NCBI GenBank assembly: GCA_016926955.1
Contig: JAFGNN010000015.1
Location: 1-55,542 of the forward strand
Source: Spirochaetales bacterium
GTDB lineage: Bacteria; Spirochaetota; Spirochaetia; Treponematales; UBA12059
DNA: 55,542 bases
Direction of reading: 5' to 3'
Positions 35,400 through 48,288 of the stretch are shown piece after piece; position 1 is the stretch's first letter; each line of letters opens with the position of its first letter. A model generated the notes under the pieces. It was not told the origin of the DNA. It searched no databases and worked only from the letters and a program-made list of their open reading frames with translations. Position numbers and translations under genes: made by a program.

Positions 35400-37820
35400 A
35401 TGGCCAAACGCCGCTCGAGATTCTTCGAGACGAAGTACTTCGCGTTCGTGATCGGCTTGATCCTGTTCCTGGCCTTCTTCGCCGTGGGAACCTGGACAGG
35501 CTGGCTCGAAAGCCTAGAGTTGGCGGCCTTCGACGCGCATTTCAAGCTCAAGGAGAACATCCAGCAGAGCTCCTCGCAGGTCGGCTCCGAGAGCACTACC
35601 CGCAGCCACCGCATTTCCGAGGACATCCTCATAATCGGCGTGGACTTCAACTCGCTGTCACGGTATGGCCGCTGGCCGTTCCCGCGCTGGCGGCACGCGG
35701 ATCTGGTGAACGCTTTTTCGCGCATAACCGATCAGGCCAACCGCGAGCGGGCGCTGTTCATCGACGTGTTCTTCATAGATCCGGACCGCGTGGTCGAGGA
35801 TGACGTGGCGCTCGTCGGCGCCATCCAGGATTCGGGCAGGGTGTTCCTCGAGACCGTGCTGACCGACACGCCCGCAGGCATCGTCGACCAGCACGAGCTC
35901 GCCGAGCGCCAGGCCATCCTCTATGAAGGATGGGGAACGGTTCGTGACGTGAGGGGTGACTGGAAGTCCATGCGCGAGTTCCTCGGCTACGAGCCGCCGC
36001 TCGCCGACTACGCCGCCGCGGTGCGCGGCTACGGACACGCCAACTTCATCTCCGACGTGGACGAGGTGTTCCGAAGGCAGCCTCTCATCCTCAAGTCCAG
36101 CGAGCTCATCGAGGAGCTGCTTCTCGACGAGCTGGCTCCGGGCTACGACGTAAACGCCGCGGCATTCGAGCGCCTTTCCTGGTCGGATATGGATGGCGAG
36201 ACCCACGACGTGAAGCTCCCCTTGACCCAGCGGGAGCTGGAGCGCCTGAGGACGGAAATGGAGGAGAACGCTCCCGTCGTCATCCAGGATCTCGACGGGG
36301 ACGGCAGCGCCGACCTGAGCTACCACGTCCTGCAGCGCTACCGTGATTTCTTCGTCCCGTCCATCACGCTCTCGCTCGCGGTTGACTATTTCGGAAAGAC
36401 CCTCGACGACCTCACGGTGGAGATCGGCAAGGAAATCGTCATTCCCTCGCCCATGAAGTGGGACTCGGACGAATCGGCCTGGGTGCCTTACCGGGTCCTC
36501 GTCAAGCCGGGCGTCTGGAACGAGGGTGAGCTCCTCGAGCCCGAGGTCTACAGGGCTGTCCCCGAGATCCGCATCCCGATCGACGGCCAAGGCCGCATGC
36601 TCGTCAATTTCATGGGACGACCGTCATCGGACACCGCCGAAGGGGTCCAGACCTTCCCGGTGCGCTCGTATTCGGGTTACGCCGACAAGGCGCCCCAGGC
36701 TGATCCGGAGACCTGGCGCCGTCCGACAATGGCCGCCAAGGGCAAGATCCTGATGGTGGGCGCTTTCGCCCGCGGTGTCGCGCAGGACGAGAAGCCTACG
36801 CCCTACGGCCTGATGTACGGCATCGAGATGCACGCGAACGCGCTCAACACCATCATCATGGACAACTTCCTGCGCTACGCGCCCGCCTGGCTCGACGCGC
36901 TTGTGCTCCTCGCCATCATCATGCTCACCAGCCTCTACAGCTCGCGTATCTCCACAGTGTGGTCCTTCTTCCTCACGCTCCTGCTCGTGTTCGCGCTGTT
37001 CATCGGCGCAACCCTCAGCTTCGACTACCGCCAGACGGTTTTCGCCTACGCCTCTCCGGCGCTCGGCTCGGTGTTCGCGTTCATCGCCATCGTAGCGTAC
37101 CGCGCCTTTACCGAGGAGCGCGACAAGCGCATGATCCGCGACACCTTCGGCAAGTACGTGAGCCCCCGCGTCGTGGACCAGCTGGTCGAATCGCCCCCCG
37201 AGCTCGGCGGCGTCGACAAGGAACTGACCGTCTTCTTCTCGGACATCCGCGGCTTCACCACCTTCTCGGAGAACATGTCCCCGCAGGAACTCGTAAACCA
37301 TCTGAACGAGTACCTGGGCGCCATGACCGACCTCGTGCTGGAATACGGCGGCACGCTCGACAAGTACATCGGCGACGCCGTCATGGCCTTCTGGGGCGCC
37401 CCCCTGCCGCAGAAGGACCACGCGGTGCTGGCCTGCAAGTGCGCGCTCCGCCAGATGGAGAAGCTGCGCGAGCTCAACGCCGCCTGGCCCGAGCACAAGC
37501 GCATCAACATCGGCATCGGCCTCAATTCCGGGATCATGACCGTCGGCAACATGGGCTCCAAGATCCGCATGAACTACACGCTCACCGGCGACAACGTGAA
37601 CATCGGGAGCCGCCTCGAGGCGACGAACAAGGAGTACGGCACCAACATCATCCTGAGCGAGTCGACCTACGCCCTGGTCCGTGACAAATTCCTGGTCCGC
37701 GAACTCGACAACATCCGCGTAAAGGGCAAGAACAAGCCGGTGGTCATCTACGAGCTCGTCGATTGCCTCGAGAGCCTCGATCCGCCGGTCTCACTGGTCG
37801 ACGATGTCAAGCGCAAGTAG
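35400..37820 (+). CDS. CHASE2-domain class III adenylate/guanylate cyclase
   Basis: An 806-residue membrane protein. An N-terminal helix (about 12-35) precedes a large extracytoplasmic CHASE2 sensor domain (about 40-480: ILIIGVDFNSLSRYGRWPFP and GIEMHANALNTIIM are CHASE2 hallmarks). Three C-terminal membrane helices (about 495-575) follow. The class III cyclase catalytic domain is about 605-790, with metal-binding Asp615 in FSDIRGFTTFSE and Asp659 in YIGDAVMAFWG. NYTLTGDNVNIGSRLEA contains the transition-state residues. It should make a cyclic nucleotide in the cytoplasm in response to a periplasmic signal; the ligand is unknown. ATG 35400 has GGAGGTCG upstream. T. pallidum, as I recall, has one such cyclase (TP0485). 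Confidence 0.93.
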   Translation: MAKRRSRFFETKYFAFVIGLILFLAFFAVGTWTGWLESLELAAFDAHFKLKENIQQSSSQVGSESTTRSHRISEDILIIGVDFNSLSRYGRWPFPRWRHADLVNAFSRITDQANRERALFIDVFFIDPDRVVEDDVALVGAIQDSGRVFLETVLTDTPAGIVDQHELAERQAILYEGWGTVRDVRGDWKSMREFLGYEPPLADYAAAVRGYGHANFISDVDEVFRRQPLILKSSELIEELLLDELAPGYDVNAAAFERLSWSDMDGETHDVKLPLTQRELERLRTEMEENAPVVIQDLDGDGSADLSYHVLQRYRDFFVPSITLSLAVDYFGKTLDDLTVEIGKEIVIPSPMKWDSDESAWVPYRVLVKPGVWNEGELLEPEVYRAVPEIRIPIDGQGRMLVNFMGRPSSDTAEGVQTFPVRSYSGYADKAPQADPETWRRPTMAAKGKILMVGAFARGVAQDEKPTPYGLMYGIEMHANALNTIIMDNFLRYAPAWLDALVLLAIIMLTSLYSSRISTVWSFFLTLLLVFALFIGATLSFDYRQTVFAYASPALGSVFAFIAIVAYRAFTEERDKRMIRDTFGKYVSPRVVDQLVESPPELGGVDKELTVFFSDIRGFTTFSENMSPQELVNHLNEYLGAMTDLVLEYGGTLDKYIGDAVMAFWGAPLPQKDHAVLACKCALRQMEKLRELNAAWPEHKRINIGIGLNSGIMTVGNMGSKIRMNYTLTGDNVNIGSRLEATNKEYGTNIILSESTYALVRDKFLVRELDNIRVKGKNKPVVIYELVDCLESLDPPVSLVDDVKRK

Positions 37821-38664: not shown

Positions 38665-41175
38665 TCAGGCCAGAAGCGACAGCACTTTCAGGTAGTCTTC
38701 GGGTCCGGTTCCGTCATCGGCGAATTGTCGGGTCCTTTTTAGGCGGAGACTGCGTCCGGGATCGACGCCGAGCGCGCGCTCGAGGATGGCCTGGAGCCCC
38801 AGCTCTTTCCGTCCTCCGTTCCTGAGGCGCAGCCTGACGGAAGGACCTTTTGCATCGACAAGCGAGCCTTGAAGCTCCGGGACAGCGATTTCTCCGGAGA
38901 GCCGGGCCGCGATGGCGAGGGCGCCTTCCGCGCTTTCGCACGCAAACTCCCAATCCGAGCCCCAGGCGAGCGAAGCGAGGGAACGTCGTTTCCGGCCATC
39001 GACGAACGGAACCCAAACGGCCCTGTCAACCTCGATGCCTTCCGGAAGACAGGCGGAAAGCCGAGCGATGAAATCATCCGCTTCCATTCTGCGTTCGAGG
39101 ACGGCCAAACCGAGTTCTTCCAACGACGAAACCCCGATGGGCAACGGGTCGGAGAGTTCGAGGCGCGACAATGGGTTGAAACCCTCGGAAAGCGCGACCG
39201 GAAGGTCGGCGATGAGGAAAGCTCGATGGAACGCGTCGTGGAACTGGTGGTGGGGCCAGAATGGCGTACGTCCGGCGCGCCGCCAGGTGAACGCCATCCT
39301 TCCTTCGTTGGCGGCCTGAGGCCTCTGGCCTACGGGAGCGAGCGGCTCGGACGAGGATGAAGGACCTTGCGCGATGATGTACTCAAGAAACTCCGAATGT
39401 ATGTTTTTTACTACAACTCCGGCGCCCGTGCTGCACGAACCGCAAAGATCGGCGCAGGAGTCGGTGCACATGCCGGTGAGGATGGAAGCGTCGGATCGTT
39501 CGAGTTCCCGGAGAAGCCACTTCCTCGATACGCGCAGGTTCACGTCATCCCACGGCAAAGATTCGTCAAGGGATCGTGGGCGCGCGGCGTCCGCCCATGG
39601 GTCATAGCCCCTTTCGGCGGAAACGCGAGCCGCCTCCAGCCAGAGATCCCTCCTCGAATGCTCCTCCCACGCGTCGAGACGGCACCCGAGGCGCCATGCG
39701 TCGAGAGCGAAGTCGCCCGCGCGCGCGTCCCCACGGGAAAACACACCTTCGAGCGCGGAAAGGAAGGGATCGTGCCAACTGAGCTTGACGCGGCGCTCGC
39801 GACGGAAGGCCTCCCGTATAACAGCCAGGCGAACGGACGCCTCACCCGCGGCAAGCGCTGGAGCCCACTGGTAGGGCGTGTGCGCCTTGGGCACGAAGGT
39901 GCCGACGTTGATGTTGAGCTGGAAGGTCGAGGCGGCAAGGAGGCGCCTGACGTACTCGACGAGCGCCTCGGCCTCCCCCTCCCCCGCCCCTCCGGGAACC
40001 GGAAGCCCGAGCATGAAATAGAACTTGGCCTGCCGGTACCCGCGTCGCTTCGCCTCGTCGAGGATGCCCACGATGCGATCGAAGGTCACGGTCTTGTTGA
40101 TGGAAAGCTGCCAGTGGTCGGCCGGCGTCTCTACCGCGAAGGTCAGGCCGCTCTTTCGGGTCTGGGCTATCTCCTCGATGATCGGCAAGGGAAAGCTGTC
40201 GACCTTGAGCGAGGGCAGCTGAAACGAAACCTTCCGCGGGCCATAGCGGGCGTTGAGTGCGCGGAGCAGCAGGTCAACCCGCGGATAGTCGCCCGATGAC
40301 AGGGACGAAACGGTAATTTCCCGATGCCCTCCCTTTGTGACGAGCCGTTCGACGTCCTCGAAGATCGCCTCCGGTTCGCGGACGCGCTGGGGACGGTAAA
40401 AATATCCGGCATGGCAGAAGCGGCAACCGTTCGGACAGCCGCGCATGATCTCGACGACTCCGTGATCCTGGACGGGCTTGAGCGAGGGAACGGGCAAGGC
40501 CGTGTCGTAGCGCCGGGTCGGGAAGCCGTCGTCGATCGCTCGGATCGCTTTCTTGCCGGGCATCCAGAAAGCGCGTTCCCCGGCGATCCGGGCAAGCAAC
40601 TCGGGCCTGCGGGCTCCGGCCTTCTTCATGCCCGAGAGTTCCGAGGCGAGGGAAAAGAAGCCGGCTTCCGCTTCGCCGATCCATACCGCGTCGACAAATG
40701 GCGAGAAGGGCGCCGGATTCGTGATGGCCGGACCTCCGGCTATCACGATCGGGTCGTCCCTACCGCGTTCCGCCGCGCGCAGCGGGATTCCTGCAGAGGA
40801 AAGGACCGTGAGCACTCCGGTGATGGACAACTCGTATCCGATCGAGAACGCGACCAGGTCGCACTCGGCAACGGGCAGACCGGTCTCGAGGGTGTAGAGC
40901 GGGACCCCGCTTCTGGTGAGCAGCGCCTCGAAATCGGGGGCCGGCGCGAACACGCGTTCGCAACGAACGCCCTCGAGCGCGTTCAAGGCCGAGTAAAGGA
41001 TGCGCACGGCGTTATTGGAAGTGCCGATCTCGTAAAGGTCGGGGAAACAGAGGGCGATGTCGAGCCAAGTTCCTTCGCCTTTTCGAGTCGCCCCGTACTC
41101 TCCCCCGAGATATCGCGAAGGCTTGCGCACCTCGAGAAGGGACGCGCCAAGGGCGGCGACCGGATCTATGTTCAA
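38665..41175 (-). CDS. Fused radical SAM (TIGR03960-type) and DUF2344 (TIGR03936-type) protein
   Basis: An 836-residue protein. The N-terminal part (about 1-600) is a cobalamin-domain-like radical SAM enzyme: YLGGEYGATRKGEGTWLDIA, VIAGGPAITNPAPFSPFVDA, and the cluster motif CPNGCRFC at residues 247-254 with standard CX3CX2C spacing. A Cys-rich segment (MCTDSCADLCGSCS, CX3CX3CX2C) sits before the linker and may bind a metal or second cluster. The C-terminal part (about 625-836, FTWRRAGRTPFWPHHQFHDA, SEGFNPLSRLELSDPLPIGV) is the DUF2344 family. In Clostridia I recall these as two adjacent genes near rodA; here they are one. The function is unknown; a modification of tRNA or ribosome is often suspected. 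The start overlaps the rodA stop. Confidence 0.88.
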   Translation of the reverse strand: MNIDPVAALGASLLEVRKPSRYLGGEYGATRKGEGTWLDIALCFPDLYEIGTSNNAVRILYSALNALEGVRCERVFAPAPDFEALLTRSGVPLYTLETGLPVAECDLVAFSIGYELSITGVLTVLSSAGIPLRAAERGRDDPIVIAGGPAITNPAPFSPFVDAVWIGEAEAGFFSLASELSGMKKAGARRPELLARIAGERAFWMPGKKAIRAIDDGFPTRRYDTALPVPSLKPVQDHGVVEIMRGCPNGCRFCHAGYFYRPQRVREPEAIFEDVERLVTKGGHREITVSSLSSGDYPRVDLLLRALNARYGPRKVSFQLPSLKVDSFPLPIIEEIAQTRKSGLTFAVETPADHWQLSINKTVTFDRIVGILDEAKRRGYRQAKFYFMLGLPVPGGAGEGEAEALVEYVRRLLAASTFQLNINVGTFVPKAHTPYQWAPALAAGEASVRLAVIREAFRRERRVKLSWHDPFLSALEGVFSRGDARAGDFALDAWRLGCRLDAWEEHSRRDLWLEAARVSAERGYDPWADAARPRSLDESLPWDDVNLRVSRKWLLRELERSDASILTGMCTDSCADLCGSCSTGAGVVVKNIHSEFLEYIIAQGPSSSSEPLAPVGQRPQAANEGRMAFTWRRAGRTPFWPHHQFHDAFHRAFLIADLPVALSEGFNPLSRLELSDPLPIGVSSLEELGLAVLERRMEADDFIARLSACLPEGIEVDRAVWVPFVDGRKRRSLASLAWGSDWEFACESAEGALAIAARLSGEIAVPELQGSLVDAKGPSVRLRLRNGGRKELGLQAILERALGVDPGRSLRLKRTRQFADDGTGPEDYLKVLSLLA

Positions 41176-42491
41176 AGGTCGAACCTTCTCGCGGATACGG
41201 CCAGGGTGAGTCCGATGCCGACCAAGGCGGTCCAGAGCGAGGAACCGCCGTAGGAAAGGAAGAACAGCGGTATGCCCGTGATCGGCATGATCCCCATGGC
41301 CATGCCCACGTTGATGATGAAATGGAAGAAGACCATCCCGACGACGCCGGCGACGACATATGATGCGAACGCGCTCTTAAGGTTCCTGAGCAGGAGCACC
41401 GAACGCGCCAGCAGGATGAAGAACAGCGAGAACACGAGGACGCCGCCCATCAGTCCCCATTCCTCCGATAGTATGGAGAAGATGAAATCGGTGCTCTGCT
41501 GGGGAAGGTAGCGATAGTGGCTCTGCGTGCCCTGCAGGAAGCCGCGGCCGCCGAAACCGCCGGAACCGATCGCGGTGATGGACTGGAGGATGTTCCAGCC
41601 GGAACCGCGCGGATCCACCGAAGGATCGAGAAAGACGATCAACCGCATGACCTGGTATTCCTTGAGCACCATGCGGCCGACGAGCGCCACCAGGAGCGAG
41701 GCGCCCAGGAGAAGGGAGGAATAGGCGATCCAGTAATAATAGCGTTTGCGCCCCAGCAGGAAGCCGAGGGTCGCTAGGGCGAAAACGCCCGCGAGCCCTC
41801 CGATGAGCAGCCACGAGCGCGGCGGTTCGTAAAAAACGGAAAGCCATACAGACGGCGCGTCCGCGATCACGGTCTCGTAGAGCGGCAGGACTGCGAAACC
41901 GAGGGTCAGGACTGCGAGCAAGCCGACAAAGGCGACGTATCGGGTCTCTATGCCGCCGATCCACGCCATGACGAGGAAGATGGGCAGGAACACCAGCGAG
42001 GTGCCGAAGTCGGGCTGTATCAGGATGAAGGCCATCGGTATCGCCGCGATGGCGAACGCTTTCAGGAAACGTCCGAAGCGATTCGGGTCGTGTCGCGAAT
42101 CGGCAAGATACTTGGCCAGCATCAGGATCGCGGCGATCTTGGTGAACTCCGAAGGCTGTACGCCGACATCGCCCACCCCGATCCATGATCGGGCGCCGTT
42201 AACCACCCGCCCGAAGAGCTTCGTATAGACGAGCGCGACCAATGCGGCCCCGTAGAACCAGGGAGCCCAGTCGCGCCAACGCTTCCAATCCACGACGATG
42301 ACGGCGACCAGGAGCACGAGTCCCGAAGCGACCCACACGAGCTGCTTGATCCATTCGTTCGAAACGACGAGCCCTTCGCTCGTCACGCCGGATGAGTATA
42401 TGAACAGGACGCCGGCGCCCATGAGGAATATCGCCGGAGCCAGTATCCACCAGTCGATGTCGCTGAACGAGCGGCCCGATATCGCCATCAT
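41172..42491 (-). CDS. rodA: SEDS peptidoglycan glycosyltransferase RodA
   Basis: A 439-residue membrane protein with about ten helices, which polymerises glycan strands for cell elongation together with PBP2. Family landmarks include NGARSWIGVGDVGVQPSEFT near the middle, LIQPDFGTSLVFLPIFLVMA, GFGGRGFLQGTQSHYRYLPQ (with the conserved 'G-x-F-x-GTQ' segment), QSTDFIFSILSEEWG and the C-terminal NVGMAMGIMPITGIPLFFLS. ATG 42491 overlaps the stop of mrdA (ATGA). It is the fifth gene of mreB-mreC-mreD-mrdA-rodA. Confidence 0.95.
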   Translation of the reverse strand: MMAISGRSFSDIDWWILAPAIFLMGAGVLFIYSSGVTSEGLVVSNEWIKQLVWVASGLVLLVAVIVVDWKRWRDWAPWFYGAALVALVYTKLFGRVVNGARSWIGVGDVGVQPSEFTKIAAILMLAKYLADSRHDPNRFGRFLKAFAIAAIPMAFILIQPDFGTSLVFLPIFLVMAWIGGIETRYVAFVGLLAVLTLGFAVLPLYETVIADAPSVWLSVFYEPPRSWLLIGGLAGVFALATLGFLLGRKRYYYWIAYSSLLLGASLLVALVGRMVLKEYQVMRLIVFLDPSVDPRGSGWNILQSITAIGSGGFGGRGFLQGTQSHYRYLPQQSTDFIFSILSEEWGLMGGVLVFSLFFILLARSVLLLRNLKSAFASYVVAGVVGMVFFHFIINVGMAMGIMPITGIPLFFLSYGGSSLWTALVGIGLTLAVSARRFDL

Positions 42492-44365
42492 TCCATCCTC
42501 GAAGCGCTCGGCTTCGCGATCCAGCCCATTCCGAGCGCGGCGACGGCCTCGTCGTAAGTCTGGCCCGAGAACCAGCCCTGGTGGATGATGTTGGTAGCGT
42601 ACGTGGCCCACCACTCCCAGGGATTCGAGGCTTCGACCATCACCACGACCACTATGACGTCCTCCGGATCTTCGGCGTCGTACGGCGCCCACGAAGCGAG
42701 CCAAGAGTGCCACCGGTCAGGCAGGCCGACTTCCGCTGTTCCGGTCTTGCCGGCTACCTCGACGGCTCTGGTGTTGATGGCGTAGCGAGCCGTTCCTTCG
42801 GTGATCACACCGCGCAAGGCGCTGCGGACTTCGGCGAAGACCGCAGGATCGGTGCGCGATCTGATGATGGGCTCGGGGTCGACCTTCGAGACGACAGCTC
42901 CCGTGGACGCGTCGCGGACTTCCTTGAGCACGTGCGGGCGGTAAACGACACCGTCATTGACGATCATCGCGTACGCGTTCGCGACCTGCAGCGGTGTGGA
43001 AAGGGTGAAGCCCTGCCCGATCGCGACGTTCATCGTGTCACCCGCCAGCCACTTCTCGTGGAAGCGCCGTTCCTTCCATTGCGGCGTCGGAACGAAACCG
43101 TCCACCTCGCCCGGAAGGTCTATTCCCGAAGCGATACCGAATCCGAATTCCGTGGCGTAGGAGACGATCCGCTCGATGCCAAGATTGTCGCGGCCGACTA
43201 CCCAGAAATAGATGTCGCAAGATTGCTCGAGAGCTTCCTCGAGATCCACCTTTCCGTGTCCCGGATGGGTGTTCCAGCAGCGCCACACGCGCTCGCCATA
43301 GGATATCTGCCCTTCGCATAGGACTTCCTTGTCAGGCGAGACCGACTCCTCCTCGAGGATGGCGGTCGTCATCACTGCCTTGAACGTGGAAGCCGGCGGG
43401 TAGCTCGACTGGATCGCCCGGTTGATGAGCGGATTTCGCTCGTCGTTGAGGAGTGCCGCGTATGCGTTGTTACCGCCGGCGCCGATGAAAAGGTTCGGGT
43501 CATAGGATGGATAGGAGACGAGGGCGAGCACCTCGCCCGTGGCCGGCTTGAGCACCACCACTGAGCCCATCCGCTCGCCAAGGGCATCTTCCGCGAGTTC
43601 CTGCATGCGACGGTCTATGGAAAGCACCAGGTTGCTTCCCATGACGGGTTGGTCGACGGCGCGATTGGAACGGGTTACAGCTCGGCCGCGGACATCGACC
43701 ACCGAGAATTCCCTTCCGTCCTTGCCCCGCAGCAGCGCGTCGTATTGCTTCTCGATGCCTGCCTTGCCGACCAGATCCCCGGTCTTGTAGCCCTTGTTGT
43801 AGAGAACCTTGAGCTCCTCGCGGGTTATGTCGCCCACGTAGCCCAGGATGTGGGAGAAGGATCCCGATACGGCATACGAACGCTTGGGTTCGGCGCGCCA
43901 GACGATTCCGGGAAACTCGTCGACCCGCTCGGCGAGAGCCGTCACGGTTCCGTAATCCACCGCCTGGGCGATCTCTATGGCCTGATACAGATGGTAGTAG
44001 GCTGGCGGAACCTTCGAGCGTAATTCGTCAAGCGGCTGGTCGAGGACCATGGCCAGCTTCTGGAAGACGGTGTCGCGCAGGGCGGCGGGCAGTTCTGCGG
44101 GAATGAGGTCGATCGCGAAGGAGTCGACGTTGAGCACGAGCGGGCTGGAGACGTTGCGGTCGAAAATCTCGCCGCGTTGGGCGGGGATGATCGTGGTCTG
44201 CCGTGCGATCGTCGAGGCCTTGGCTCGGTATTCAACACCCTGCCTGATCTGGAGATCGAAAAGATGCAGGGCGTAGACGGAAAACACGGCTCCCATCAGC
44301 CAGAGAAGAAGCGTGGCGCGACGCGGATCGACCGGCTGGCCGCCGTGCTGTGTCGAGTCGCTCAA
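42488..44365 (-). CDS. mrdA: Penicillin-binding protein 2
   Basis: A 625-residue class B PBP, the transpeptidase partner of RodA. One N-terminal membrane helix (ATLLLWLMGAVFSVYALHLF) is followed by the non-catalytic pedestal (PAQRGEIFDRN, and HILGYVGDI) and the transpeptidase domain. The active-site Ser326 lies in ASTFKAV (SxxK with Lys329), the second motif is SCD in QSCDIYFWV (E. coli PBP2 also has Asp here rather than the usual Asn), and KTG is in VAGKTGTAEV. The start overlaps the mreD stop by 4 bases (44362-44365). Confidence 0.96.
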   Translation of the reverse strand: MSDSTQHGGQPVDPRRATLLLWLMGAVFSVYALHLFDLQIRQGVEYRAKASTIARQTTIIPAQRGEIFDRNVSSPLVLNVDSFAIDLIPAELPAALRDTVFQKLAMVLDQPLDELRSKVPPAYYHLYQAIEIAQAVDYGTVTALAERVDEFPGIVWRAEPKRSYAVSGSFSHILGYVGDITREELKVLYNKGYKTGDLVGKAGIEKQYDALLRGKDGREFSVVDVRGRAVTRSNRAVDQPVMGSNLVLSIDRRMQELAEDALGERMGSVVVLKPATGEVLALVSYPSYDPNLFIGAGGNNAYAALLNDERNPLINRAIQSSYPPASTFKAVMTTAILEEESVSPDKEVLCEGQISYGERVWRCWNTHPGHGKVDLEEALEQSCDIYFWVVGRDNLGIERIVSYATEFGFGIASGIDLPGEVDGFVPTPQWKERRFHEKWLAGDTMNVAIGQGFTLSTPLQVANAYAMIVNDGVVYRPHVLKEVRDASTGAVVSKVDPEPIIRSRTDPAVFAEVRSALRGVITEGTARYAINTRAVEVAGKTGTAEVGLPDRWHSWLASWAPYDAEDPEDVIVVVVMVEASNPWEWWATYATNIIHQGWFSGQTYDEAVAALGMGWIAKPSASRME

Positions 44366-44868
44366 TAAGCCCTCCGCGGGGTGACCAGAAGCGGGCCGAA
44401 CAGGCCCAGAACGAGGAAGACGAACGGGGCCGCCACGGCGTTATAGGCAATCTCGACCCAGAGCGCGGACGAGAGGAAATCGTACGGCACGACATGGACG
44501 GGGAAGAGCAACGCTATCACGGAGATCGAAAGCGCCTTGAAAAGCGTGGCGGATGCGGCGAGGACGACGGGAAGGAGTATGCGGTCCGCGAAAACCTTTC
44601 CGGAGGCCAGCGCGTACGTGAATCCAACCAGGGTGCGCACCAGGGCGTTGAGTCCGAGGGGCGCGGCAGACAGCGCGTCCTGGGCGATGCCCGAAAGAAA
44701 ACCGGCCAGCTGCCCCTCGGGCCCGGTGTTGCGGAACGACGTGTAGACAAGGACCACGAGCGCCAGGTCCGGCACCACGGACAGCACCTCTACCGCGCGG
44801 AGCCAGGTGCCCTGCGCGTAGACGCAGAGCACCGAAAGGAGGCTTGAAACCATTACCGATCGCAGCAA
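44362..44868 (-). CDS. mreD: Rod shape-determining protein MreD
   Basis: A 168-residue membrane protein with about five helices, a part of the elongasome whose exact role is still unclear. The short hydrophobic layout (VVPDLALVVLVYTSFRNTGP, GFLSGIAQDALSAAPLGLNA) matches MreD. The segment G-x-G-x-x-x-D is the family's most regular part (here GFLSGIAQD). It lies between mreC (4-base gap) and mrdA (overlap). Confidence 0.9.
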   Translation of the reverse strand: MLRSVMVSSLLSVLCVYAQGTWLRAVEVLSVVPDLALVVLVYTSFRNTGPEGQLAGFLSGIAQDALSAAPLGLNALVRTLVGFTYALASGKVFADRILLPVVLAASATLFKALSISVIALLFPVHVVPYDFLSSALWVEIAYNAVAAPFVFLVLGLFGPLLVTPRRAY

Positions 44869-44872
44869 AACG

Positions 44873-45727
44873 TCATCCTTCGGGCGTGGCTTCAGGGAAG
44901 ACCACGAACAGGTACTCGAGCCTGTTGAAATCGACCACCGGTTCGATGTCGATGTCGATTGAGGTCTGGTAGTCGGTGATGTGCAGGCGTGCGACGCGGC
45001 CGATGACCACGTCCGGGGGATACAGGGAATGAAAACCAGTCGTGACCACCAGGTCTCCGAACTGAATCTCGTCCTTGGCGTGCTTCTTGACGTAGCGCAT
45101 CAGGAGCGGGGCATCGCTGCCGGCGCCGCCCACCAGTCCTTCGAAGCGCGTGCGCTCGAGGCGGGCAGATACGAACGAAGCCGTGTCGTAGAGCGGCCCG
45201 ACGATGGAGCTGGTGCGGCCGACTTCCACCACCCGACCGACAAGGCCTTCGCTTCCGTCGCTGTAGGCAATCACGGGAAGGTTCTTGCGGACGCCGTCCA
45301 CGGAGCCCTTGTCGATCACGAACGAAGAATACAGGTTGTCCGGGTCGCGAGCGATCACGCGCGCGGCCATCTTGCGATAGCTTATCCGCTCGGCGAAACC
45401 GAGCAGGTTCGAGAGTCGTTCGTTCTCCCTCCGGAGTTCCGCGTATCCGCGCTCGAGCGATTCGAAGCGTTCCAACCGGTCGAGCAAGGCCTCGTGGCTG
45501 CGCCTCAGGTCACGCAGCTCTCCGACCGCAGATACCGTGTCGCCGACGAGGGATCCGACAGCCGAAAAGCCCTTCTGGAAAAAACCGAGGACCGAGAGAC
45601 CGATCCGCTCCGGCAAACCCGTCAGGGCGCGCGTGGAAAGCAGCAACATGACGACAGAAGCGGAGGAGAGCAGCGCGAGCATGAGAGCCTTGCGCCTGAG
45701 GTCTCCCGCCGGGGCGCGGGAACGCAT
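44873..45727 (-). CDS. mreC: Rod shape-determining protein MreC
   Basis: A 284-residue bitopic protein: a basic cytoplasmic N-terminus, one membrane helix (about 14-32, ALMLALLSSASVVMLLLSTR), a coiled-coil (about 70-110, LDRLERFESLERGYAELRRE), and a periplasmic double beta-barrel domain (ARVIARDPDNLYSSFVIDKG, GLVGRVVEVGRTSSIVGPLY, GDLVVTTGFHSLYPPDVVIG). It activates PBP2-RodA. ATG 45727 shares one base with the mreB stop (TGATG), so it is coupled. Length is normal. Confidence 0.95.
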   Translation of the reverse strand: MRSRAPAGDLRRKALMLALLSSASVVMLLLSTRALTGLPERIGLSVLGFFQKGFSAVGSLVGDTVSAVGELRDLRRSHEALLDRLERFESLERGYAELRRENERLSNLLGFAERISYRKMAARVIARDPDNLYSSFVIDKGSVDGVRKNLPVIAYSDGSEGLVGRVVEVGRTSSIVGPLYDTASFVSARLERTRFEGLVGGAGSDAPLLMRYVKKHAKDEIQFGDLVVTTGFHSLYPPDVVIGRVARLHITDYQTSIDIDIEPVVDFNRLEYLFVVFPEATPEG

Positions 45728-46761
45728 CAGTAGCCCATGCCGCCGTAGGGTCCGATGCCGTCCTGGCTCTTCATGGTCTCCCAGTATTTGCCGGACCCGA
45801 TGGCGACGCACTCGAGCGGACGCTCGGCGAGTATGACCGGGACTCCCGTTTCCTTTGCGATGAGCTTCGGGAGTCCCTTGAGGAGGCTGCCGCCGCCCGC
45901 CATGACGATGCCCCGCTCCACGATGTCCGCGGCGAGCTCGGGCGGCGTCTGTCCAAGGGTGCGCTTGATTTCGTCGACGATCTGGTTGATGGGCTCCTGG
46001 AGCGCCTCGCGAACCTCGACCGAGTCGATCTCGAGGCGTCGCGGCAGGCCGGTGATGGCGTCGGTACCCTTGATTTCGACCTTTTCGATCACCTTCTCGG
46101 GGCTGGCGTTGCCGATCTCCATCTTGAGCCGCTCGGCGGTCTGTTCGCCGATGATCAGGTTGTGCACGTTGCGTATGTGGCGGATGATGGCCTCGTCGAA
46201 CTCGTCGCCGCCGATGCGCACCGCGTTCGTGACGACCATGCCCTTGAGCGAGATGACCGATATCTCTGTGGTGCCGCCGCCGATATCGCAGATCATGTGG
46301 CCGGCGGGCTCTTGGATCGGGATCTCGGCGCCTATGGCCGCGGCAAGCGACTCGAAGATGACCTTGACGTCGCGGGCACCCGCCTTGTAGGCGGCGTCTT
46401 CGACGGCGCGCCGCTCCACCTCGGTGATGCAGGAGGGAATGCCGATCACCATGCGCGGCTTCACGAACCAGCGGCGGGGAATGACCTTCTGGATGAAATA
46501 GCGGATCATCTTCTCCGTCGTGTCCGGATCGGCGATCACGCCGTCGCGCAGGGGGCGGATGGCGATGATATCGCCGGGCGTCTTCCAGAGCATCCGCTTG
46601 GCCTCCGAGCCGACGGCGACGACGCGCTTGGTTCCCCGCTCCACCGCCACGACCGACGGTTCGTTGATGACGATGCCCTTGCCCCTGGCATAGATGAGCG
46701 TGTTGCAGGTTCCGAGGTCTATCCCGATGTCAAGCGACAGGCTGTCGAGCAGTTTGCCCAT
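45727..46761 (-). CDS. mreB: Actin-like cell-shape protein MreB
   Basis: A 344-residue bacterial actin that forms membrane-bound filaments guiding the elongasome. Phosphate 1 reads [14 protein letters not shown], connect 1 has [20 protein letters not shown], phosphate 2 is [12 protein letters not shown], and the adenosine motif is [17 protein letters not shown] 46761 has CGGAGG upstream. It is separated from the TPR gene by 28 bases without a promoter, so that gene probably leads the operon. Confidence 0.97.
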
Positions 46762-46789
46762 ATGATCCTCCGTGGATGCTTCGATTCGT

Positions 46790-47755
46790 TCAGGGGCGTT
46801 CCGCGAGCTTCTGTCGCGCGCCGGCGTGGACCGGGTCAATTGAAACGGCTTTGCGCCATTCGGCGCGCGCCAGCGCCGGGTCGCCGGCGTTCTGGGCCAG
46901 GACGCCGAGGCGGTAATGCGCCTCGGCGGATTCAGGATTTTCTTCCAGGATGGTCCGATACTGGGATTCCGCTTCCGGGGTGGCACCCCGAGCCTCGAGA
47001 AGCTCTCCGAGGAAAAACCTGCACAGTTCGCGGACGAATGCGTCGCCCGAGATCGAGAGAGCCTCCATGGCTAAAGCTTCCGCCTCGGCATGCCTGCCCG
47101 TCCCGGCGCGCGCGCGCGCGGCGGCTAGCAACAGGGTATCGGTTCGACGTTCTGCCAGCGCCCGGTCGAAGTACTCGATGGCGCGCTCGCCCATGCCGAG
47201 GCCGTCATACGCGAGGGCTACGTGCTCCCAGGCGTCCTCGGCGCTGAAGCCGGCAGCCACTGCGGCCAGCAAGGCCTCCACCGCTTCCCCGTACCAAGCG
47301 CTGCCTTTTCGGTAATAGGCCTTTCCCAGGACGTAGAGCGCTCGCGAGCGGTACGGGGTGTCCTCCACCAGGAGTACCTTGCGAAGGTAGAAGATGGCGG
47401 CATCCATGTCCTCGATACGCGCTTCCTCGTCGCTCTGCGCTACTCCGCGGTAGAAGGCGGAGAATCCGGCGAGCGACAGGAGCACGGGATCCAGCGGTTC
47501 CTTCTCGAGTCCGGCTTCGCAAATCGAGATGGTTCCGGGCAGGTCGCCGGATTCCCAGGAGGCCAAAGCCGCTTCCCGTACGCGAACCGCCTGATTCCTT
47601 TCCGCCATGACCCCGACAAGCCGGGGCGCGCCGAAAGCGGCGGCGGCCGCGACGAGCAGACCCCCCGTGACGATCACGATGGCGATCGTGCCGCGGCGTC
47701 TACGCGATGAGGATCCGAGCTGCACGGTCGGGGCGTTGCGCGGGTAGAATTCCAT
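46790..47755 (-). CDS. Membrane-anchored TPR protein leading the mre operon
   Basis: A 321-residue protein. A short cytoplasmic part ([20 protein letters not shown]) is followed by one membrane helix ([20 protein letters not shown]), then TPR units along the rest ([80 protein letters not shown]). It should be periplasmic or cell-surface. ATG 47755 is preferred to the in-frame ATG at 47782 because the likely promoter covers 47782. As the first gene before mreB it may help assemble or regulate the elongasome, but this is inferred from position. Confidence 0.8.
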
Positions 47756-47847: not shown

Positions 47848-47861
47848 GGGAAAAAAAAGAA

Positions 47862-48280
47862 GGCGGGCCTGTAAGCCGGGTTCTGTCCCCTTTCGGGGAG
47901 CCGTCATCCATCTCGGGCTCCGGTCGCCCGGAGCCTCCGCGCGGCCTACCCGCGGGATGCGGAACCCTAAGGTTCCGCAGGACCGGCGGTCCTCCCGCTG
48001 CTCGGCCTTGCTCGCGGCGAGGCTTGCAATGCCGCCGCCGTTGCCGGCGGCGCGGTGGGCTCTTACCCCGCCTTTTCACCCTTGCCGTCGTACCGCGCGA
48101 ACGCGGTACGCTTGGGCGGTTCGCTTTCTGTTGCGCTGTCTGTCGCGCGCGCTCCCGGAAACCCGAAGGCCCCGTAAAGCTTGCGCTCCCGGTAATTACC
48201 CGGCGCCGCGCCTTCGCGAGCCCGGACTTTCCTCCCCGCGAAGCGCCAAGGCGCTTCGCGAAGCGACGGCTCGGCCCGCC
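47862..48280 (-). ncRNA. rnpB: RNase P RNA, bacterial class A
   Basis: About 419 bases. The catalytic RNA removes 5' leaders from pre-tRNAs. Conserved elements, read on the minus strand: P1 5' strand GGCGGGCC at 48280-48273 pairing with GGCCCGCC at 47869-47862; GAGGAAAGTCCGGG at 48234-48221 (conserved region I); GGGTGAAAAGGCGGGGTAAGAGCCC near 48084-48060; GGGTAGGCC near 47951-47943; and the 3' part GACAGAACCCGGCTTAC ending just before P1. The 5' end lies 9 bases after the stop of the zinc-ribbon gene. The sequence TAATTT just upstream (48290-48285) may serve as its -10. Ends are estimated from P1 pairing. Confidence 0.96.
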
Positions 48281-48288
48281 TTCAAAAA

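Follow-up and report, generated by a model that had tools for sequence, protein, structure and literature searches.

A radical SAM-DUF2344 fusion protein encoded after rodA in a Spirochaetales bacterium: a candidate cobalamin-type enzyme acting on RNA

Introduction

Why would a radical S-adenosylmethionine (SAM) enzyme be joined to a domain of the DUF2344 family and encoded so closely behind the elongation gene rodA that the two genes share bases? The question is raised by contig JAFGNN010000015.1 of a Spirochaetales bacterium (GenBank assembly GCA_016926955.1), analyzed here as one stretch of 55,542 nucleotides that we call the window. The initial annotation had described a single 836-residue chain with radical SAM and DUF2344 parts whose start overlaps the rodA stop. 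Both statements were borne out: the open reading frame (ORF), Pfam, and NCBIfam agree on one fused protein carrying both parts with a Cys-rich (Cys4) segment between them, and its TTG start codon (41175-41173) overlaps the TGA stop codon of rodA (41174-41172) as TTGA (41175-41172). Our answer, to which we give a probability of roughly 55%, is that the fusion may be a radical SAM enzyme of the B12 type whose substrate, a structured RNA, is held by a catalytically dead TruA-like domain.

The fusion itself is not new. Pfam finds Radical_SAM_N2 at residues 57-206, Radical_SAM at 241-392 (68.1 bits), and DUF2344 at 626-744 (65.7 bits against a gathering score of 23.8), all over their gathering scores, and Cys247, Cys251, and Cys254, invariant within the matching barrel, place the protein in the radical SAM superfamily. 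It belongs to TIGR03960 with 479 bits (curated cut-off 462.3, E 2.2e-143) and passes TIGR03936 narrowly with 73.7 bits (cut-off 71.9) over profile positions 2-121 of 209; it represents the TIGR03960/TIGR03936 pair in fused form. The domain order is that of NCBIfam TIGR03960 and TIGR03936 and of Pfam PF10105 (DUF2344). The NCBIfam names, rSAM_fuse_unch for TIGR03960 and sam_1_link_chp for TIGR03936, record that the link and its fusions are already in databases. This widespread family is catalogued as a pairing and is uncharacterized in function; a literature search with most subscription papers outside its coverage found no paper on the function of the TIGR03960/TIGR03936/DUF2344 family. Three pattern matches on viral contigs included no relative. 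As a separate observation, two genomes encode a second radical SAM protein in an 848-residue frame whose TIGR03960 similarity is weak (68 bits for G003:C45:3344-4510, 34 bits for G043:C203:2450-3682) and which may represent a paralogue family.

Results and Discussion

The predicted fold of DUF2344

Modeled alone (predicted local distance difference test score, pLDDT, 95.0), DUF2344 is read as a pseudouridine-synthase fold without pseudouridine-synthase catalysis. Its best structural match by VIA-align is Thermus thermophilus TruA (1vs3_A; Z 12.3, 180 residues, 2.9 Å), with PUS3 close behind (12.2), and residues 624-834 of the full-chain model align with the same TruA structure at Z 12.6 over 180 residues and 2.8 Å, PUS3 likewise reaching Z 12 on that model over residues 622-834. 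Among the 50 VIA-align rows shown, 48 are named pseudouridine synthases or H/ACA particles containing one; two are chains, not named, from complexes of the mitoribosomal small subunit. The best Foldseek match (8e-8) is TruA with transfer RNA (tRNA), and a comparison of the DUF2344 profile with 26 TruA sequences by HHalign gave E 5.7e-5 at a probability of 66%. This fold relation is not new either, and the accessible part of PMC7955657 gives a Pfam clan placement of DUF2344 that agrees with it.

DUF2344 thus has the fold of TruA, PUS1, and PUS3 (Z 10.2-12.3) but not the catalytic Asp of the TruA motif RTDxGVHA. The column of that residue, in a pairing that rests on the one HHalign of probability 66%, holds Pro or Ser in 21/21 rows of an alignment with distant spirochaete fusions and Pro, Ser, Ala, or Gln in 21 diverse DUF2344 rows; a TruA Gln pairs with the invariant Glu687 of DUF2344 in the profile alignment. 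A GFNP motif was also considered as the counterpart of the TruA catalytic loop and rejected, the profile alignment putting PLPIG-VSS-LEE there and neither place having a conserved Asp.

The radical SAM part and the cobalamin question

The full-length AlphaFold2 (AF2) model (pLDDT 90.9; predicted template-modeling score, pTM, 0.92) places a Rossmann-like domain of the cobalamin-binding kind at the N-terminus, followed by a radical SAM barrel with the three cluster Cys residues, which is the predicted arrangement of a class B fold. These Cys residues (C247, C251, and C254) are invariant in 69 aligned spirochaete fusions and kept in 21/21 rows of the alignment with distant fusions. When 1000 Foldseek chains were re-aligned to the full-chain AF2 model with VIA-align, the best match was MgmA (Z 20.1, 369 residues, 3.3 Å), followed by CysS (17.4), a chain of an MtaB-YvfG integrative model (17.2), MiaB with RNA (16.9), RimO (15.8), AprD4 (15.8), TsrM (15.4), TokK (14.2), and OxsB (13.0). 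With MgmA, CysS, TsrM, and TokK the predicted model shares the same two-domain fold over residues ~33-510 (Z 14.2-20.1), but identity is only 14-18%, the MetH-type His is missing, and the fusion has the Cys4 linker and DUF2344 in addition. With MiaB and RimO (Z 15.8-16.9) it shares the common radical SAM fold, and an RNA or ribosomal substrate is a feature of those two enzymes.

MetH-type B12 domains carry the motif DxHxxG. The fusion has D46-L-Y48-E-I-G51 at the presumed equivalent place, and Tyr48 is invariant in 69/69 aligned spirochaete fusions and in 21/21 rows of the alignment with distant ones. In the class B enzymes described in the accessible part of PMC9692996, the lower cobalamin face holds Arg, Trp, or Leu rather than His, and the known class B methylases act on protein or small molecules. 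The idea, modeled on Mmp10, that Tyr48 might be the lower cobalamin ligand was dropped, because the same part of that source has Tyr115 of Mmp10 binding the cluster.

To set the family in a wider context, we surveyed 149 Spirochaetota genomes at least 90% complete, counting as a carrier any genome with a TIGR03960 match at E 1e-40 or better. The B12-enzyme domain PF02607 occurs in 98/104 carriers versus 24/45 non-carriers (Fisher p 1.7e-8, uncorrected for kinship), a co-occurrence confounded by kinship and genome reduction. Together with the predicted model, we infer from this that the fusion protein may use cobalamin.

Gene neighborhoods and proposed function

Ribosome and RNA maturation genes are the most frequent thread among the neighborhoods, though they are absent in some lineages. 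The gene ksgA, encoding a 16S ribosomal RNA (rRNA) dimethyltransferase, is the immediate upstream neighbor on the same strand in 24/104 carriers (families f16, f26, f30, f33, f37, and f39), with gaps of -4 to 211 bases in the seven ksgA-linked loci read; elsewhere ksgA had no match in three carriers and stood 4.6 and 6.6 kb from the fusion in two more. Outside the spirochaetes, five records were read of seven plasmid-collection matches: a Ruminococcus megaplasmid and large records of Collinsella, Monoglobus, Acetoanaerobium, and Nonomuraea. (The other two, H6 and H7, have ~25% identity and are annotated as radical SAM protein.) In Acetoanaerobium the genes after the pair are one for RNase E/G (scoring 272.4 bits against a cut-off of 325.95), rplU, prp (which also falls short of its cut-offs), rpmA, obgE, and yhbY; in Ruminococcus they are rplS, lepB, and ylqF. 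In Collinsella, mreB, mreC, mrdA, and an FtsW/RodA gene precede the pair and rplU, rpmA, and obgE follow it; Nonomuraea has mreB, pbp2, and rodA matches before it and obgE downstream.

We propose that DUF2344 would grip and present a structured RNA, for which rRNA (or else tRNA) in the course of ribosome maturation is the likeliest candidate, and that the radical SAM part would modify a carbon, unreactive by itself, in a base or ribose, with cobalamin-dependent methylation as the most probable reaction. Fusion would thereby keep together in a single chain what other genomes encode as two neighboring, mostly overlapping genes. RNA as the substrate class is the more certain step of this proposal and the methylation and B12 chemistry the least certain, and modification of ribosomal or transfer RNA is more probable than a role in cell shape. 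One specific product, N-330 at position 1404 of 16S rRNA (PMC2584109, accessible in part), was dropped because Haloferax volcanii has N-330 by that source but matched neither family among the control genomes. Synechococcus elongatus, another of these controls, gave candidate matches to both families.

A number of observations weigh against an RNA-modifying B12 enzyme. The MetH-type cobalamin His is absent, with Tyr48 instead, and 6/104 carriers are without PF02607. AprD4 and OxsB, cobalamin-fold radical SAM enzymes not known to be methylases, match as well as some methylases, so the fold leaves methylation unsettled. Two of the 21 DUF2344 Foldseek matches at E <=0.001 are unrelated ferredoxin-type proteins, and the net charge of DUF2344, averaging +0.4 over 69 rows, is close to zero and not strikingly basic. 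In Monoglobus a phosphofructokinase gene comes after the pair and no ribosome gene was seen, and the two Sphaerochaetaceae loci read have dnaG- and rpoD-like genes a few genes upstream (named by family for locus L086) and no ribosome genes. The mre/rodA order recurs in the window's class, in family f13, and in the two actinobacterial records, which is more than would be expected were that order never useful. Lastly, a fold alone shows no function, and the RNA, substrate, and product proposed here are predictions.

The ribosomal neighbors are also what an unlikely alternative would draw on, in which the substrate is a ribosomal protein or other translation factor, as S12 is for RimO, with the TruA-like domain serving to dock on the ribosome or a ribosomal precursor. 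Three records have the pair next to rplU, rpmA, or rplS, the fold relates the protein to RimO (Z 15.8), and the best structural match, MgmA, methylates a protein according to its structure title; the fold of DUF2344, on the other side, is that of RNA enzymes.

The Cys4 segment

The linker between the two parts holds C570-TDS-C574-ADL-C578-GS-C581, a CX3CX3CX2C segment for which a second cluster had been suggested at the outset. The four Cys residues are real and invariant in 69/69 aligned spirochaete fusions, but a generally required second cluster they are not: the segment is missing in 11/20 distant spirochaete fusions, where 0 to 2 Cys are left in the linker (one or two stray Cys in L133, L135, L139, and L140). 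These 11 rows form one clade (support 100/98) that includes all seven ksgA-linked tree rows and keeps C247/C251/C254, Y48, E115, G665, and E687. Because a whole clade lacks the segment and keeps the rest, an essential second cluster was rejected. Split homologues have CX3-4CX2C with the fourth Cys present or absent. Judging from these alignments, the segment is an accessory, which might form a zinc site with a structural role or an auxiliary cluster particular to the lineage.

The same segment enters a second alternative, as unlikely as a protein substrate, that makes the fusion a MiaB-like RNA enzyme working independently of B12 (by methylthiolation or a similar reaction), with a Rossmann-like domain that has ceased to bind cobalamin and an auxiliary cluster in the Cys4 linker. 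The Z of 16.9 for MiaB with RNA, the invariance of the four Cys in the 69 aligned fusions, and the missing cobalamin His would all fit. However, the match to the methylthiotransferase model TIGR00089 reaches only 29.4 bits against a cut-off of 251. MiaB and RimO have three conserved Cys in the N-terminal domain, a set that the fusion lacks, only C72 being near-invariant before residue 236; its conserved Cys lie in the linker, outside that domain, and are missing in the clade just described. The co-occurrence with PF02607 counts against this alternative as well.

Distribution of the fused form

The fused form is normal for Spirochaetota. TIGR03960 sits in a frame of at least 730 residues in 101 of the 104 carriers, and the three without a long frame are G082 (at a contig edge), G150 (434 residues), and G160 (489 residues). 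The G150 frame (G150:C1:1108669-1109892), in a single-contig genome whose congeners have ~810 residues, is a broken copy or a sequencing error. Within the window's order, 28 relatives gave a strong TIGR03936 match, the window's own genome not counted, and all 20 of those read are fused. For the best 80 of 564 named loci, all with spirochaete names, tblastn found both halves in one frame in 72, a long frame (761-873 residues) without a DUF2344 match in eight, and a split in none. The five non-spirochaete records all have two adjacent genes, overlapping in four; nothing fundamental differs from the fusion otherwise. The statement in the initial annotation that the two families are separate neighbors near rodA in Clostridia therefore holds for the separate genes but not for rodA, which was not found within ~8 kb of the pair in any of the three clostridial records; it was found near the pair in both actinobacterial ones. 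A tree built on 38 rows of the radical SAM part groups the split ones together (support 100/99). This tree was midpoint-rooted, its bootstrap had not settled, and it gives no order for fusion versus splitting.

The link to rodA and mreBCD

The position of the gene suggests a third alternative, somewhat more doubtful than the previous two, in which the protein is an elongation factor that modifies a rod-complex component, lipid carrier, or peptidoglycan, hence its tie to rodA. The order mreBCD-pbp2-rodA-fusion was found in all 20 order relatives read of the 28, 66 of the best 80 named loci have rodA upstream and on the same strand (two of the other 14 had <1.2 kb upstream), and mre and rodA matches precede the pair in Collinsella and Nonomuraea. 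A -4 overlap at the rodA/fusion junction recurs in 13/21 order-level loci, window included, with starts chosen by the analyst. In the window the genes 5' of the fusion are mreB, mreC, mreD, pbp2, and rodA by NCBIfam; the rodA_shape match is 391.6 bits (cut-off 336.7), rodA is read from an ATG (a listed 513-residue GTG ORF is a longer frame of the same gene), and GAGAAGG 5' of the fusion TTG is a plausible Shine-Dalgarno sequence. Short overlaps occur at three junctions, rodA/fusion, pbp2/rodA, and mreD/pbp2 (the last by ORF starts as listed), so the overlap with rodA marks an operon and no special bond with that gene.

Across the phylum the association is far looser. With MreB (E 1e-50 in the 149-genome survey) standing in for the mre-rodA cluster, only 21/104 carriers have mreB within 15 kb of the fusion, and in 79 of the 100 carriers with detected mreB it is on another contig or >20 kb off; 15 of the 79 are on one contig, and some of the other separations may be contig breaks. 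Moreover, 44 genomes have mreB without the enzyme and four the enzyme without mreB. In family f3 of the window's own order, the enzyme is present in 4/16 surveyed genomes, and five f3 genomes (G024, G027, G032, G035, and G037) have two SEDS (shape, elongation, division, and sporulation) genes and MreB with no TIGR03936 match and at most a weak TIGR03960 match in frames of 469-498 residues. In the other direction, G040, G041, and G042, with Sphaerochaetaceae-type loci (L102, L110, and L098), have a fusion over cut-off, a single SEDS gene, and no MreB match above ~57 bits, an absence made weaker by their being metagenome-assembled genomes (MAGs) of completeness not told. Their SEDS gene adjoins a weak match to the MreB model, taken as FtsA, and the missing MreB and rodA are in keeping with what is known of Sphaerochaeta. 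Separately, the Sphaerochaeta MAG G039 (L086) has one SEDS gene and three tandem MreB-like genes of ~350 residues at C23:88480-91555.

The conserved rodA link claimed in the initial annotation is thus a local one that does not extend over the phylum, and the shared elongation process drawn from it finds no support: enzyme and mreB/rodA come apart in both directions, and other lineages place the enzyme beside ksgA or ribosome genes. After this two-way dissociation an elongation role was rejected as the leading explanation, to which the predicted RNA-enzyme fold of DUF2344 is also opposed. We infer that the place after rodA reflects inherited gene order and co-expression, with no cell-shape function.

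Most improbable of all is that DUF2344 still makes pseudouridine, in concert with the radical SAM chemistry. The TruA fold of DUF2344 would favor this, but it has against it the Pro or Ser (21/21) and Pro, Ser, Ala, or Gln of the catalytic-Asp column, the lack of any Asp column with 90% conservation in the 21 diverse rows, and the two full ordinary TruA paralogues with RTDAGVHA already in the window's genome (L146 on C60, L147 on C5).

Features of the locus

Table 1. Positions of the fusion gene, its parts, and the genes 5' of it in the window
Feature	Positions	Strand	Remarks
Fusion protein, TIGR03960 (radical SAM) + TIGR03936 (DUF2344)	38665..41175	-	836 residues, TTG start; ORF, NCBIfam, Pfam
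N-terminal Rossmann-like domain (predicted)	40558..41070	-	residues ~36-206, Radical_SAM_N2 57-206; within MgmA-aligned stretch 39-486
Radical SAM CX3CX2C motif (C247, C251, C254)	40414..40437	-	alignments; 21/21 rows with distant fusions
Cys4 segment (C570, C574, C578, C581)	39433..39468	-	missing in one clade
DUF2344 domain	38674..39312	-	residues 622-834; TruA-type fold without catalytic Asp, predicted model
rodA	41172..42491	-	stop codon overlaps fusion start codon; NCBIfam
pbp2 (mrdA)	42488..44365	-	NCBIfam
mreD	44362..44868	-	NCBIfam
mreC	44873..45811	-	NCBIfam
mreB	45727..46986	-	ORF as listed; MreB match starts at residue 84, true start probably further in

A class A RNase P RNA gene (47856-48282, reverse strand, 222 bits) lies directly upstream of the run of tetratricopeptide repeat (TPR), mreBCD, pbp2, rodA, and fusion genes on the same strand. 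Pfam finds a CHASE2-adenylate/guanylate cyclase gene (35400-37820, forward strand) that faces the fusion at a distance of two ORFs. In six named loci, a cluster of ~800-residue proteins downstream of the fusion resembles this cyclase at a glance.

Implications

Beyond this one locus, it is possible, though we hold it tentatively, that TIGR03960/TIGR03936 is a class of cobalamin-type radical SAM enzymes acting on RNA, guided by a pseudouridine synthase without catalysis and making a carbon modification that has not been mapped. The partner domain, with its predicted TruA fold and no catalytic residue, and the two-way dissociation from rodA turn a vague guess at cell shape into a testable proposal of RNA modification. 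If the proposal is true, such a modification would be present in the rRNA or tRNA of spirochaetes, Clostridia, Actinobacteria, Thermotoga, and cyanobacteria, and a B12-type radical SAM enzyme working on RNA would widen both fields.

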